NCBI RefSeq assembly: GCF_008580665.1
Contig: NZ_BKDJ01000004.1
Coordinates: forward strand, 124,001-188,000
DNA: 64,000 nucleotides
Direction: 5' to 3'
Origin: Zafaria cholistanensis
Lineage (GTDB): Bacteria > Actinomycetota > Actinomycetes > Actinomycetales > Micrococcaceae
The notes under the pieces are model-generated. The model saw only the letters and a list, made by a program, of their open reading frames with translations. It was not told where the DNA came from and made no database searches. This document shows, piece by piece, positions 26,207 to 51,163 of this stretch. Both the position numbers and the translations under genes were made by a program. Each line of letters begins with the position of its first letter. Position 1 is the stretch's first letter.

Positions 26207-27820
26207 ATGGCAGAGAGCCGCACCGACCAGACCGGCGAAGCGATCGACTTGTCCACCACGGCGGGCAAGATCGCGGAGTTCCGGCGCCGGCAGGCCCTGT
26301 CGCTGCTTCCCTCCGGGCAGGAGGCCGTGGACCGGCAGCACGCCCGCGGGAAGAACACGGCCCGCGAGCGCATCGACCTGCTGCTGGATGAGGGCTCCTT
26401 CGTCGAGTTCGACGCCCTGGCGGTGCACCGGACCACCGCCTTTGGCATGGCCAAGAAGCGCCCGCTCGGCGATGGCGTCGTATCCGGCTACGGCACGGTG
26501 GACGGGCGCCTGGTGGCCGTGTACTCCCAGGACTTCACCGTCTACGGCGGTTCCCTGAGCCAGGTCAACGGCGAGAAGATCGTCAAGGTCCAGGAGTTCG
26601 CGCTGCGCAACGGCTGCCCCGTGGTGGGCATCAACGACGGCGGCGGCGCGCGCATCCAGGAGGGCGTCGCCTCGCTGGCGATGTTCGCTGACATCTTCCG
26701 CAACAACGTGCACTCCTCCGGGGTCGTCCCGCAGATTTCCCTGATTATGGGCCCGTGCGCCGGCGGCGCGGCCTACTCCCCCGCCCTGACCGACTACGTG
26801 GTCATGGTGGATAAGACCAGCCACATGTTCATCACCGGGCCGGACGTCATCAAGACGGTGACCGGCGAGGAGGTGGACATGGAGACCCTGGGCGGCGCCC
26901 GCCAGCACAACACCACCACCGGCACCGCCACGTACCTGGCCAGCGACGAATCGGACGCGATCGAGTTCGTCAAGGAGCTGCTGGACTTCCTGCCCTCCAA
27001 CAACATGGCGGAGGCCCCGCTGATGGGCTTCGAGGAGGAACTGCACCTCACGGCTGCGGACCTGGAGCTGGATGCGCTCATCCCCGACTCGGCCAACCAG
27101 CCCTACGACATGCGCACGGTCATCGGGCACGTCGTCGACGACGGCCATTTCCTGGAGATGCAGTCCCTCTACGCCCCCAACGTGCTGATCGGCTACGCCC
27201 GCGTCGAGGGCCGTACCGTGGGAATCGTCGCCAACCAGCCGATGCAGTTCGCCGGCACCCTGGACATCGCCGCCTCGGAGAAGGCCGCCCGCTTCGTGCG
27301 CCACTGCGACGCCTTCAACATCCCGATCCTGACCCTGGTCGACGTGCCCGGCTTCCTGCCCGGCAAGGACCAGGAATTCCAGGGCATCATCCGCCGCGGC
27401 GCCAAGCTGCTGTTCGCCTACGCGGAGGCCACCGTGCCGAAGCTGACCGTGATCACCCGCAAGGCCTACGGCGGCGCCTACATCGTGATGGGCTCCAAAA
27501 AGCTCGGCGCCGACCTGAACCTGGCCTGGCCCACCGCCCAGATCGGCGTCATGGGCGCCCAGGGCGCGGTCAACATCCTCTACCGCCGCGACCTGGCCGA
27601 AGTGGAGGCGGCCGGCGGAGACGTCGAGGCCCGCCGCACCGAGATCATCGAAGGATACGAGGCGGAGCTGCTCAACCCCTACCAGGCGGCGGAGCTCGGC
27701 TACATCGACGCGGTGATCGCCCCGGCGGAGACGCGCCTGCAGATCGTGCGGGGGCTGCGCGCGCTGCGCGACAAGCACGCCTCGCTCCCGGCCAAAAAGC
27801 ACGGCAACATCCCGCTCTAA
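26207..27820 (+). CDS. Acyl-CoA carboxylase, carboxyltransferase (beta) subunit
   Basis: 537 residues from ATG 26207 ([14 protein letters not shown]) after GGGAG. Transfers the carboxyl group from biotin to acetyl- or propionyl-CoA to make malonyl- or methylmalonyl-CoA. Both crotonase-like halves are present: [34 protein letters not shown] and [16 protein letters not shown] in the N-half; [30 protein letters not shown] and [16 protein letters not shown] in the C-half. It belongs to the actinobacterial AccD/PccB type. The epsilon subunit follows by 10 bp and birA is divergent. Substrate choice depends on a few pocket residues that I cannot assign securely. Confidence 0.94.
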
Positions 27821-27830
27821 GGAGGACGCA

Positions 27831-28052
27831 GTGGCCACCACGGACACGCAGCCAGAACCGCTCTTCCGCGTCGAACGCGGCAACCCGACGCCGGAGGAAA
27901 TCGCGGCGCTGGCCGCCGTCGTGCTCTGCCTGCAGTCCGGGACCGAGCCCGAACCCGCCGCGCCCACCCGCGGCGAGCAGGTCCGCCGCGGCTTCCGCCG
28001 CGGCCGCCAGATGGCCACCATGCCCGGCGCCTGGCGCAGCGGCAGGGCCTAG
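27831..28052 (+). CDS. Acyl-CoA carboxylase epsilon subunit
   Basis: 73 residues from GTG 27831 after GGAGG. EPLFRVERGNPTPEEIAALAAVVLCLQ matches the short actinobacterial epsilon subunits (AccE/PccE), which have a conserved RGxPTxEE-A-LAAV helix and an Arg-rich tail ending in a PxxW element, here PGAWRSG. These subunits stabilise the alpha-beta complex and raise activity. Position directly after the beta subunit gene supports the call. Confidence 0.88.
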   Translation: MATTDTQPEPLFRVERGNPTPEEIAALAAVVLCLQSGTEPEPAAPTRGEQVRRGFRRGRQMATMPGAWRSGRA

Positions 28053-28053
28053 G

Positions 28054-28091
28054 GAGCCCTCCCGGGGGCCGGCGCGCCGGAGGAGGGGCTC
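28054..28091 (+). terminator. Possible hairpin terminator after the carboxylase beta-epsilon operon
   Basis: GAGCCCTCC pairs with GGAGGGGCTC with one bulge, starting 2 bp after the epsilon stop codon and enclosing a CCGGCGCGCCGG palindrome. No T-run follows. Confidence 0.4.
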
Positions 28092-28107
28092 AGCGCGGAT
28101 CGCCCAC

Positions 28108-28135
28108 GGTGCCCGGGAACAGGTGCCCGGGAACA
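28108..28135. repeat. 14-bp direct repeat, two copies
   Basis: GGTGCCCGGGAACA twice in tandem, just beyond the 3' end of the serpin remnant. Confidence 0.85.
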
Positions 28136-28144
28136 GGCGCCCAG

Positions 28145-28722
28145 TCACAGTGGCAGGCCGGTGCGCGTGTCCCCGCCCCGGGCGATCCCGGTCACCACGG
28201 CACCGGGCCGGATCGCGTCCAGGTCCGGTTCGGGTCCCAGGGTGCGCTCCAGCCCCAGGGCCTTGAGCACCGGAAGCAGCTGCACCGTCCCGTTGACCCC
28301 GAACCGGGGCAGGCCCACCCTCAGCTCCCCGGAGGGGGCGGCCTCCGCGGCCGCGTCCAGGGAGGCCAGCGTGTCCGCTCCGGCCGTCGGGGCCACGCCC
28401 TGGGGCGGCAGGGCCAGCCGCATGAGGAACCCGTTGCTGTAGGGCAGTTCCACGATCCGCCAGCCGTCCGCCCCGGTGTGGCGGAACCGGCCCCCCGGTA
28501 CACCGTGGGCGTTTGGACCACCCCGCCGGAGGCGGTGGCGAACCCGGCCTCCAGGGTGTCCGCCGGGAACGGCCCGCCTGTTGGGGTGGCACTGTCGGCG
28601 AAGACCCCGTGGGCCAGGTGCAGCAGGGGCCTGGCCCGAGGTTCGCCATCCCCGGGGGAGGCGGGGTCGCCGCCGAACTCCTCCCAAGCGGCCAGCACGG
28701 AGCGGTAACCCCCAATTCCCAA
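28145..28722 (-). pseudogene. Truncated, frameshifted serpin remnant
   Basis: Two overlapping minus-strand frames add up to the middle and late part of a serpin. Frame 1 (from 28722) reads LLHLAHGVFADSATP...FATASGGVVQTPTVYR, which fits the serpin strand and loop before breach and shutter. Frame 2 continues GRFRHTG-ADGWRIVELPYSNGFLMRLALPP and ELRVGLPRFGVNGTVQLLPVLKALGL, close to the serpin VELPY and LPRFKIE motifs. The switch falls at a run of six G (plus-strand 28491-28496); a seventh would restore one frame. The N-terminal half (about 180 residues) is absent and the reactive-centre loop is cut short at GDTRTGLPL. So inactivation seems old, unless the G-run is a sequencing error. Serpin identity is from motifs only. 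Confidence 0.62.
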
Positions 28723-28742: not shown

Positions 28743-28748
28743 TAGGCT
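28743..28748 (+). promoter_or_regulatory. -10 box of the DUF885 gene
   Basis: TAGGCT followed by exactly 6 nt and the ATG at 28755; no ribosome site. Consistent with a leaderless transcript. Confidence 0.55.
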
Positions 28749-28754
28749 CGGACC

Positions 28755-30449
28755 ATGACCAACGCCGCAGCCGGCACCCCGCGGGTGCCCACCGCCATCG
28801 ATGCGATCGCGAACCGGCACTTCGCCCGCCTCCTGGAGCTTTCCCCGGAGTTCGCCACCAGCCTGGGCCTGCCCGGCCATGAGACCGGGTACGGGGACTA
28901 CTCCCCCGCCGGCACCGCGGCCCGGGCCGAGGCCGCCCGAGGGGCCCTGGCCGCGCTGGAGAACCAGGAGCCGGCGGACGCGACCGACGCCACCACCCTG
29001 GACGCGATGCGCGAACGGCTGGGGCTGGAGCTGGAGATCATCGCCACCGGCATCACCGAACTGAACAACATCGCCTGCCCCGCCCAGGGGATCCGCGCGA
29101 TCTTCGACCTGATGCCCCGGGACACCGTGGAGCAGTGGGGCCACATCGCCGGCCGGCTGCGCAACGTGCCGGCCGCCCTGGCCGGATACACCGAGTCGCT
29201 GCGCCACAGCCTGGCGCTGGGCAAAGTCGCCGCCCGGCGCCAGGTGGAGATCGTCGCCGGGCAGGCCAGCGGCTACGCCACGGAGGACGGCTTCTTCCAC
29301 ACGCTCGCTTCGGGCGCCGCGGTGGCGGGCGGCGGCGGGCTGCCGGCCGCGCTGTCCGCGGACCTGGCCGAGGGCGCGGCCCTGGCCGCCGGGGCCTACC
29401 GGTCCTTCGCCCGTTTCCTGCGCGCCGAACTGCATCCGTCGGCCCCGGAGAAGGACGCCGTGGGCCGCGAGTACTACGCCCTGACGTCCCGGCTCTTCCT
29501 CGGCGCGACGGTGGACCTGGAGGAGACCTACCACTGGGGCGTGGAGGAACTGGACCGGCTGATCGCCGAACAGGAGAAGGTCGCGGGACAGGTCAGGCCG
29601 GGGGCAACCATCGAGGAGGCCAAGGCCGTCCTCAATGCCGACCCCGCCCGCCAGCTGAAGGGCACCGAGGCGCTGAGGCAGTGGATGCAGGACAAGTCGG
29701 ATGCCGCGATCGCCGCGCTCCGGGACGTGCACTTCGACATCCCCGCCCCGATGGACCGCCTCGAATGCCTGATCGCCCCCACCCAGGAGGGCGGCATCTA
29801 CTACACCGGTCCCTCCGACGACTTTTCCCGGCCTGGCCGCATGTGGTGGTCCGTACCCGCGGGCGAGGACGATTTCACCACTTGGGCGGAAACCACCACC
29901 GTGTACCACGAGGGCGTCCCCGGCCACCACCTGCAGGTCGGCACGGCCACCTACCGCAAGGACACGCTCAACGACTGGCGCCGGCACGCCTGCTGGGTGT
30001 CCGGCCACGGCGAGGGCTGGGCGCTGTACGCAGAGCGGCTGATGCTGGACCTGGGCTTCCTCGCCGACCCGGGGGACCACATGGGGATGCTGGACATGCA
30101 ACGGATGCGCGCGGCGCGGGTGGTCTTCGACATCGGCGTCCACCTGGAGCTCGAAGTGCCCTCCCGGTGGGGCGAGGGCACCTGGACCGCGCAGAAGGGC
30201 TATGACTTCCTCGCCCGGCACCTGGATATCTCCGAGGGGCAACTGAACTTCGAGTTCGCCCGCTACCTCGGATGGCCCGGGCAGGCCCCGGCCTACAAGG
30301 TCGGCCAGCGCCTGTGGGAGCAGATCCGCGATGCCCGCCGCCGTGCCGAGGGCGAGGGCTTCGACCTGAAGGCCTTCCACAGCGAGGCGCTGGGCCTGGG
30401 CTCGGTGGGCCTGGACACGCTGCGCCGGGCCCTCCTGCCGCAGGGCTGA
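28755..30449 (+). CDS. DUF885-family putative metallopeptidase
   Basis: 564 residues, mostly helical, matching the DUF885 family of predicted zinc carboxy- or dipeptidases. The core motif is VYHEGVPGHHLQ with His385, Glu386, His391 and His392, followed by WVSGHGEGWALYAERLMLDLGF and the conserved MLDMQRMRAARVVFDIGVHL and KGYDFLARHL segments. ELSPEFATSLGLPGHE at the N-terminus is also typical. No signal peptide, so it is likely cytoplasmic and may trim peptides. Catalytic function in this family is little tested. It stands alone, with its own leaderless-type promoter and a terminator after it. Confidence 0.85.
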   Translation: MTNAAAGTPRVPTAIDAIANRHFARLLELSPEFATSLGLPGHETGYGDYSPAGTAARAEAARGALAALENQEPADATDATTLDAMRERLGLELEIIATGITELNNIACPAQGIRAIFDLMPRDTVEQWGHIAGRLRNVPAALAGYTESLRHSLALGKVAARRQVEIVAGQASGYATEDGFFHTLASGAAVAGGGGLPAALSADLAEGAALAAGAYRSFARFLRAELHPSAPEKDAVGREYYALTSRLFLGATVDLEETYHWGVEELDRLIAEQEKVAGQVRPGATIEEAKAVLNADPARQLKGTEALRQWMQDKSDAAIAALRDVHFDIPAPMDRLECLIAPTQEGGIYYTGPSDDFSRPGRMWWSVPAGEDDFTTWAETTTVYHEGVPGHHLQVGTATYRKDTLNDWRRHACWVSGHGEGWALYAERLMLDLGFLADPGDHMGMLDMQRMRAARVVFDIGVHLELEVPSRWGEGTWTAQKGYDFLARHLDISEGQLNFEFARYLGWPGQAPAYKVGQRLWEQIRDARRRAEGEGFDLKAFHSEALGLGSVGLDTLRRALLPQG

Positions 30450-49800: not shown

Positions 49801-50450
49801 TGCTCGACCTCGTCCCCGAAGAACTCGATGCGCACCGGGTGGTCCTCGGTGGGCGGGAACACGTCGAGGATACCGCCGCGTACCGCGAACTCGCCGCGGT
49901 GGGTCACCATGTCCACGCGCGCATAGGCCGCCGCCGCCAGTTCCCGCACCAGGTCCCCGAACGGCTTTTCCTGCCCCACCCTCACATCCACGGGCGAGAG
50001 GTCGCCGAGCCCGGCGACCAGCGGCTGCACCACCGACCGGATCGGAGCCACCACGACCTTCAGCGTGCCGTCCGGGTGCGCGAGCCGGCGGAGCACGGAG
50101 AGCCGGCGGCCCACCGTATCCGAACGCGGGGACAGCCGTTCGTGCGGCAGCGTCTCCCAGTTCGGGAACAGCGCGACGGCCTCGGCCGGCAGGTAGCAGC
50201 CCAGTGCCGCCTCAAGGTCCTCGGCCTCGCGCCCGGTGGCGGTGATGGCCAGCACGACGGCGTCCGCGCCGCCGGCCCCCGCCGCGGCCAGGCCGTCGAC
50301 GGTTTCCGCGACCAGGGCCGCGCGCAGCCCGGGCGGGGCGGCGACCTCAAGGCCGGGGCTGCGTTCCGCGAAGGGACGCGCAGCGTGGGCGCGCACGCGG
50401 GCATAGGAGGGATCGGCCGCGAGGGCGGCGCGGAGTCCAGCAAGAGCCAT
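46842..50450 (-). CDS. mfd: Transcription-repair coupling factor
   Basis: 1202 residues from ATG 50450 after GGAAGGA; an upstream start at 50507 lacks family sequence. Mfd removes stalled RNA polymerase and recruits UvrA. UvrB-like N-terminal modules (about 1-400, with FPNWETLPHERLSPRSDTVGRRL) are followed by the RNA polymerase-interacting domain (DFVVHEQHGIARFV), then RecG-like helicase motifs: GDVGFGKTEIAVRAAF (Walker A), VDEEQRFGVEHKE (motif II), MSATPIPRTLEMSL (III), TTIIETGLDISNANT (V) and QLRGRVGRGRERAYAYF (VI). The C-terminal TRCF domain closes the protein. All helicase motifs are intact. Confidence 0.97.
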   Translation of the reverse strand: MALAGLRAALAADPSYARVRAHAARPFAERSPGLEVAAPPGLRAALVAETVDGLAAAGAGGADAVVLAITATGREAEDLEAALGCYLPAEAVALFPNWETLPHERLSPRSDTVGRRLSVLRRLAHPDGTLKVVVAPIRSVVQPLVAGLGDLSPVDVRVGQEKPFGDLVRELAAAAYARVDMVTHRGEFAVRGGILDVFPPTEDHPVRIEFFGDEVEQMRWFAVADQRSFAAGEDGPAGPAELHAPPCRELLITPSVMSRAAKLKAAMPAAADMLEKIAGGIAVEGMESLAPVLVDAMVPFVGQLPRGSIAVVMEPERVRTRAHDLSETNAEFLAAAWSTASDGGAAPVDLLQAEGVSASLDAGNFATLADTRATALEAGVSWWSVTSLGQDEELLPDVDTIRLAAREPRGYQGDVAEMMEFIGSRVREDWRVVVVTDGPGPAQRLAELFHDAGIPCHRVPSLDAPPQPGIIEITTAVAGRGFVFDGLKLGLLTEADLLGRSSAYAAKSGRKLAARRRNAVDPLQLAEGDFVVHEQHGIARFVELIQRRVATGSGDAGVREYMVLEYAPSKRGAPGDRLFVPTDQLDQVTRYVGGETPALSKMGGADWSSTKSKARRAVKEIAGELIRLYSARMAARGHAFQKDTPWQHELEEAFPFTETPDQLTTINEVKADMEREVPMDRLVSGDVGFGKTEIAVRAAFKAVQDGKQVAVLVPTTLLARQHHETFTERFSGFPVRVRSLSRFQTAKEAKEVVEGLRNGSVDVVVGTHRLLSKEVQFKDLGLVVVDEEQRFGVEHKEALKKMRTNVDVLAMSATPIPRTLEMSLTGIRETSTLATPPEERHPVLTYVGPYTDRQVTAAIRRELMREGQVFFVHNRVSSIDKVAAQLRELVPEARVEVAHGKMSEARLEQIIVDFWERKFDVLVSTTIIETGLDISNANTLIVDRADAYGLSQLHQLRGRVGRGRERAYAYFLWNAEKPLGEVALERLKAVAAHNELGSGFQLAMKDLEIRGAGNLLGGEQSGHIAGVGFDLYIRLVGEAVAEFKGEAEDKPADMKIELPINAHLPHDYVPGERLRLEAYRKLAAAQDAEAIDAVVEELVDRYGEPPAPVVNLVEVARFRVRARAAGLTDVAMQGNFIKFAPADLPESRQMRLARMYKGAQVKPALNAVLVPKPKTAPVGGRDKVDAEILAWAGEVVGNIFED

Positions 50451-50662
50451 GGGGCGGTGTTCCTTCCGGGGGCACGGCGGAGCGCACGTGGAGCCCGGAA
50501 CCGTCATCGACTCCCGGGCCGTTAACAGCCTACCGCCGGTCCGGGCGCGCCCGCCCGGGAGGAGCCCGCGCCCCCGCCTTCCTCCCGCCCGCCGGCGCTC
50601 GCGGCGGGTCCCGCGGCGGGTACGCTTAGGTTACGAAATCACAACGATGGAGGAACGCCACC

Positions 50663-51163
50663 ATGGCCCTGAACGCCACCACCACCCTGCCCTACACCCC
50701 CGCCGAAGTGGTCGCCACCCTGACCGACCGCGCCTTCGTGGAGCACCTGGGGACCCAGGTCGGCGGCACGCTGAAGGACTTCACGGTATCCGGGGATCCG
50801 GCCGGCGCGTTCGAGGCCGTCACGGTGCGCAGCGTCCCGACCGGACGCCTTCCGGAAATCGCCCGCAAGTTCGTCGGCGCCTCGGTGGACGTCACCCAGC
50901 GCGAGGCCTGGTCCGCCCCGGCCGCCGACGGTTCCCGCGAGGCCGCGGTGACCGTCGAGGTCTCCGGCATCCCGGTGAACGTTTCGGCCGTCCAGCGCGT
51001 AGTTGCCGCGGCCGAAGGCAGCCGCGTGGACCTGGAGGGAGAGGTCTCCTCCGGCATCCCGTTCCTGGGCGGAAAGATCGCCACCGCGGCCGAGCCGTTC
51101 GTGGGCAAGGCCCTGAACCTGCAGGCCGCCCAGGCCAAGGCGTGGCTGGACCGCCAGGCCTAG
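50663..51163 (+). CDS. DUF2505-family protein
   Basis: 166 residues from ATG 50663 after GGAGG. TTTLPYTPAEVVATLTDRAFVEHLGTQVGG is the usual start of DUF2505, a START/polyketide-cyclase-like fold found mainly in actinobacteria. The rest alternates beta strands and ends with a long helix (GKALNLQAAQAKAWLDRQA). It is probably a cytoplasmic small-molecule or lipid binder; the function is unknown. TAGGTT at 50627-50632 is a possible -10 box. The VanZ-like frame follows directly after its stop codon in the same reading frame. Confidence 0.85.
   Translation: MALNATTTLPYTPAEVVATLTDRAFVEHLGTQVGGTLKDFTVSGDPAGAFEAVTVRSVPTGRLPEIARKFVGASVDVTQREAWSAPAADGSREAAVTVEVSGIPVNVSAVQRVVAAAEGSRVDLEGEVSSGIPFLGGKIATAAEPFVGKALNLQAAQAKAWLDRQA

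Follow-up and report, generated by a model that had tools for sequence, protein, structure and literature searches.

The window, that is, the whole stretch of 64,000 nucleotides of Zafaria cholistanensis DNA analyzed here, carries genes for two acyl-CoA carboxylase subunits and, diverging from the minus-strand interval that follows them, a gene for a DUF885 protein (Table 1). The first of these genes is called accB here. Within the interval, two minus-strand frames are offset at a run of six G and contain consecutive serpin-like pieces, just as the original prediction had described. The upstream frame (28701 to 28498) reads ...TPTVYRGA, and the downstream frame (28477 to 28178) reads RFRHTGADGWRIVELPY...LPRFGVNGT. 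The region had been delimited as 28145 to 28722, which was slightly off at both ends: serpin homology begins at about 28701, passes the stop codon at 28145 and ends at 28090. Its upstream limit and the DUF885 start codon are separated by ∼50 bases.

Table 1 Coordinates of genes, serpin pieces and lesions at the locus
Feature	Position	Strand	Evidence and remarks
accB-like gene, acyl-CoA carboxylase beta chain (conserved left neighbour)	26216-27820	+	Matches in 394/395 family genomes; start chosen by us
accE, acyl-CoA carboxylase epsilon subunit (left neighbour)	27831-28052	+	Pfam PF13822, E 7.2e-14
Last serpin residues LFPGTVGDPR and ancestral stop codon	28090-28122	-	0/3000 shuffles; frame differs from that of the downstream piece
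Exact 14-bp tandem duplication in the C-terminal tail	28108-28135	-	Sequence
Serpin C-terminus TGLPL, followed by in-frame TGA	28145-28162	-	1/3000 shuffles scored equally well or better; alignment
Serpin remnant, downstream frame (profile 278-377)	28178-28477	-	Family profile E 2.5e-27; PF00079 E 1.1e-7
G6 run, frame change at or near it	28491-28496	-	Sequence
Serpin remnant, upstream frame, second piece (profile 248-270)	28498-28566	-	i-E 0.014, weak alone; order and place fit
Serpin remnant, upstream frame, first piece (profile 135-179)	28567-28701	-	i-E 5.8e-12; 64% identity over 42 aa to L003
Promoter-like TAGGCT	28743-28748	+	Six bases before the DUF885 start codon; serpin homology ends ∼40 bases upstream; pattern conserved in named loci
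DUF885 protein gene (conserved right neighbour, divergent from the serpin)	28755-30449	+	Pfam PF05960, E 2.2e-157; matches in 381/395 family genomes

Of 80 named loci, five were set aside for too little upstream or total length; in 63 of the other 75, the pattern TAG(G/T)CT followed by 4-9 bases and (A/G)TGA was present close to where DUF885 starts. In the window, it occurs three times on both strands together. The element of the window, including the start region (28743-28757), would be compatible with a leaderless DUF885 transcript.

Serpin homology and lesions of the remnant

Open frames by themselves prove little here, because the GC content is ∼73% and the opposite (plus) strand is also open, for 199 aa, across the same stretch. 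GC at third codon positions of the two frames was 0.89 and 0.94. The Pfam Serpin model (PF00079) matched the downstream frame above its cut-off (31.8 bits against 27; model positions 200-299 of 370), whereas the upstream frame, which had no Pfam match up to E 1, was recognized by a family-built profile only. This profile was made from 15 serpins of the window's own family (Micrococcaceae), has 438 positions and matched the downstream frame and, in two pieces, the upstream frame, the second piece scoring a weak 3.2 bits. The best tblastn relative of the upstream frame was the serpin at locus L003 of a related genus. NCBIfam was uninformative, as it matched neither frame nor the intact control L003. 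Among the solved-structure matches of the downstream frame up to E 1, 24 of 25 were serpins, with ovalbumin counted among them; these matches were individually weak (best 0.0018). Taken together, the serpin homology of the two frames goes beyond chance, and the reading of a decaying serpin gene has been borne out.

Compared with the earlier description, the remnant proved to be both longer and more damaged. That its first part is missing was correctly recognized: approximately the first 134 of the 438 profile positions are absent, export signal included, a number that is approximate since the profile was built from stop-to-stop frames whose first positions may include untranslated sequence. 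The damage had been understated, since loss or breakage extends to a middle block, the reactive-centre loop and the original end of the frame. The two pieces of the upstream frame are in frame with each other, and ∼68 profile positions are absent between them. As the alignment near the G6 run falls in a variable stretch, the frame change cannot be assigned to one particular base. Toward the C-terminus, the hinge and the reactive-centre loop (∼45 positions) are absent, the alignment jumping from TGIAR to TGLPL between 28178 and 28162, and a premature TGA stands at 28145-28147. Beyond it, the tail at 28090-28122 was the best match to a serpin C-terminus in the window on both strands (25.6 bits, the next scoring 17.0); its significance was assessed with 3000 dinucleotide shuffles of the stretch, based on 22/23 serpin rows.

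In total, ∼250 of the 438 profile positions are absent. The remnant thus falls short of a complete serpin fold (∼350-400 residues); it has neither a hinge of the form E-x-G-T-x-A-x-A nor a scissile loop, and no single uninterrupted frame with an export signal is left, owing to the frame change, the TGA at 28145-28147 and the missing 5' end. In 23 serpins from the genera g8, g10 and g31, 27 columns are invariant, and the remnant retains 22 of them; when left out in turn, each of those 23 serpins misses at most two of 27-29 invariant columns (at least 93% kept). The sampled genomes include one of the window's genus.

The same site in related genomes

A serpin match was found in 82 of the 395 sampled genomes of the family, distributed over 8 of 32 genera (the window and some fragments included). 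The assembly of the window (99.96% complete, 49 contigs) had no second serpin match anywhere, which speaks against an intact copy elsewhere in the Z. cholistanensis genome. Among 36 serpin loci (the window's own excluded), nine had DUF885 within their 1.5-kb flanks and a tenth, L007, had accB; by coordinates, 17 further genomes had DUF885 at most 4.3 kb from the serpin. In all, at least 27 genomes, six of g8 and 21 of g31, carry a serpin beside accB/accE and/or the divergent DUF885 gene, and both neighbours were seen in 14 of them. This number covers genomes with listed neighbour coordinates, and therefore excludes three of the remaining g31 genomes with a serpin (G306, G371 and G373); in the fourth, G299, the serpin is separated from DUF885 by 8.9 kb and was likewise left uncounted. 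The distance between serpin and accB was 2.8-2.9 kb in four g8 genomes. In addition, L016 (G369) has two adjacent serpin genes beside DUF885 (G369:C94:48550-49644 and 49817-50902). Intact orthologues of the broken gene thus stand at the same locus in these 27 g8 and g31 genomes, and the interval between accB-accE and the divergent DUF885 gene can be regarded as an old serpin site within this bacterial family. The serpins of g10 lie elsewhere: neither accB nor DUF885 was found in the flanks of any of 20 g10 loci, two of which end at contig ends.

Serpin presence varied within and between genera. By hand counts, a match was present in 25 of 38 g31 genomes and 7 of 10 g8 genomes, and in none of 23 sampled genomes of g18, g21 and g23, which are the closest genera by DUF885. 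Seven sites in these close genera (three of g18 and two each of g21 and g23) were short and contained no serpin. No serpin was found at three sites examined in serpin-less g31 genomes either; one more stretch, L164, ended before accB. Neither did 20 hand-chosen stretches with long or short accB-DUF885 gaps, L164 being the one short of accB, yield a serpin remnant at E 0.01 in a scan that was run without the window's own locus as control. Similarly, none of 80 named neighbour loci found by a DUF885 search matched a serpin at E 0.001; the window's own locus (L008, L038), scanned together with them, did score. In 78 of these 80 loci accB was also seen; L094 and L116 are shorter, and some loci share contigs with the sampled genomes and are not independent. 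Scanning named genomes with the downstream frame revealed no relative among 591 pattern-matching stretches, in a single-protein scan that detects close kin only and may omit the window's own genome. In two g20 genomes, G068 (L158) and G019 (L159), accB and DUF885 are ∼3.6 kb apart and the interval gave no serpin match, and some g23 genomes have long gaps by coordinates (for example, ∼18 kb in G162 and G095).

Broken serpins were also found in three other genomes of the family. G388 (L168) has a middle-deleted remnant with a frame change, lying where the intact serpins of its genus, g10, lie; G176 (L169) has a C-terminal stub in a 67-aa frame; and in G001 (L170) the serpin is split by a TGA. 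A different case is L009 (G106), a g8 serpin of very different type at another place, with 17% identity to the remnant, a long branch and no hinge motif found, which possibly represents a separate acquisition.

Alternative readings and history of the gene

Based on these results, it is very probable that the minus-strand stretch 28090-28701 is a pseudogene whose intact form encoded an exported serpin of the inhibitory type, at the old family site between accB-accE and DUF885, a reading in which the piece at 28498-28566 is a weakly supported part. Several other explanations were considered. A sequencing or assembly error might make an intact gene appear broken, since homopolymers in GC-rich DNA are prone to sequencing error. 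However, large blocks are gone although both neighbours are intact and the contig continues, and several lesions of different kinds would be required, so that this explanation is very unlikely. The single frame change could still be a sequencing error, which would leave the pseudogene verdict unchanged. An even smaller chance is given to a new role for the downstream frame (∼114 aa, its inhibitory loop deleted without a shift of frame), which would then be kept and expressed as a small protein of serpin origin that does not inhibit proteases. That frame is open with normal codon-position GC, and both internal deletions keep the frame, as would one in nine pairs of deletions by chance; high third-position GC together with frame-keeping deletions might suggest recent or partial constraint. 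On the other hand, the remnant overall has lost 5 of 27 otherwise invariant residues, and no conserved copy was seen either in the single-protein scan, which covers close kin, or in the 80 serpin-less named neighbour loci.

The G6 run had also been proposed as a possible slippage site, and the two frames do meet at a homopolymer, with an offset of one step. Slippage of a programmed or phase-variable kind that joins them into a working serpin nevertheless has a practically negligible probability and was rejected. The joined frames would still be without the first part, the middle block, the hinge, the reactive-centre loop and the original C-terminus, and slippage would not restore function because ∼250 of 438 positions are unencoded, among them the inhibitory loop and blocks of the core. 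The run itself is not special, as the window has 14 runs of at least six G and 16 of at least six C (30 in total). Moreover, 16 translated relatives each read as one frame, and a conserved run with a complete joined product was seen at none of the relatives' loci examined. Thus, a G run at a frame change need not mean a slippage site.

As to how the serpin reached this genome, the suggestion of acquisition and loss held for the loss and decay; the acquisition of a foreign gene found no support, with serpin matches in 82 of 395 family genomes and at least 27 serpins beside the same neighbours. Recent acquisition from outside the family is therefore not indicated. Within the family, the serpin may have been transferred from a g8-like relative, possibly into the same site, and then decayed; the result would equally be a pseudogene and the history alone would differ. 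The trees offer some grounds for such a transfer. In the serpin tree the row nearest to the remnant was L003 of g8 (44% identity, support 90/85, unstarred), while the DUF885 tree (N-terminal part, 34 chosen rows) grouped the genome of the window with g18, g21 and g23 (100/99), apart from g8 and g31. These three genera have no serpin match and empty sites, as described above, and inheritance would accordingly need up to three losses. However, the end branch of the remnant is 2.16 against a median of 0.27, and placing such a long, decaying branch beside L003 is unsafe. Branch length by itself does not prove decay, because some distant serpins in the tree are also long-branched (1.93 to 4.4). We lean to descent by inheritance with repeated loss, because serpin absence is frequent within genera (as in the g31 and g8 genomes without a match and at the three empty g31 sites) and the DUF885 flank is not grouped with that of g8. 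A further reason is that fragmentary or split serpins occur elsewhere in the family (G388, G176 and G001), in one case where the genus otherwise has its intact serpins. Transfer inside the family is considered somewhat less likely.

Under the preferred reading of a decayed serpin gene, the lineage would have lost the first part, the middle block and the reactive-centre loop, and would have acquired three further lesions, namely a frame change, a nonsense codon and a tandem duplication, the order of all these events being presumed; the loss may have followed once the inhibitor was no longer needed. The serpin DNA that is left is most likely drifting and most likely does nothing in its present form. 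Such a pseudogene is to be expected in a lineage of this kind and reflects ordinary gene decay with no new mechanism. The site is common to several genera in which the serpin was kept, emptied or caught decaying, and therefore provides a small natural record of how a serpin is discarded.

Probable ancestral function and comparison with known serpins

An inhibitory hinge, E(K/R/D)GT(I/V)A(A/S)A, was found in 15 of the 16 relatives' frames scanned, the exception being L009, and the same-locus serpins carry EKGT(I/V)AAA or a close variant. In addition, 8 of 10 same-locus frames have an apparent lipobox; as the automated scan was loose, the statement that they are mostly lipoproteins is based on reading the frames by eye. 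Since the same-locus serpins are mostly lipoprotein-like and have the inhibitory hinge, the ancestor was probably a surface-anchored suicide inhibitor that trapped proteases outside the cell.

Prokaryotic serpins are described as occurring sparsely in some bacterial phyla, the greater part of them in actinobacteria, proteobacteria, bacteroidetes and firmicutes, and as forming Groups S to U, with the majority of Groups T and U predicted to be inhibitory; their physiological role in many prokaryotes is called enigmatic there (PMC8233489). Among the papers listed by our literature search, none had a title or abstract opening on serpin loss in this bacterial family.

The closest known counterparts of the remnant are the family serpins at the same locus (L003, L035 and L017), which resemble it in neighbours, orientation and the sequence of the retained blocks, L003 having the highest identity among them (44% over joined columns). 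In contrast with the remnant, which lacks all of these, they are single open frames with a hinge, a reactive-centre loop and, read by eye, an N-terminal export signal. The g10 remnant of G388 (L168) is similar to the window's copy in its large internal deletion and frame change within the same family, but its genomic place is different, namely that of the intact g10 serpins, and it probably represents an independent loss. Thermopin-type serpins, on the other hand, are whole proteins and match the remnant weakly (structures 1mtp and 1sng, presumably thermopin and tengpin, E 0.02-0.03). The thermopin of Thermobifida fusca and other members of Groups S to U (PMC8233489) share with the remnant that they are bacterial serpins.
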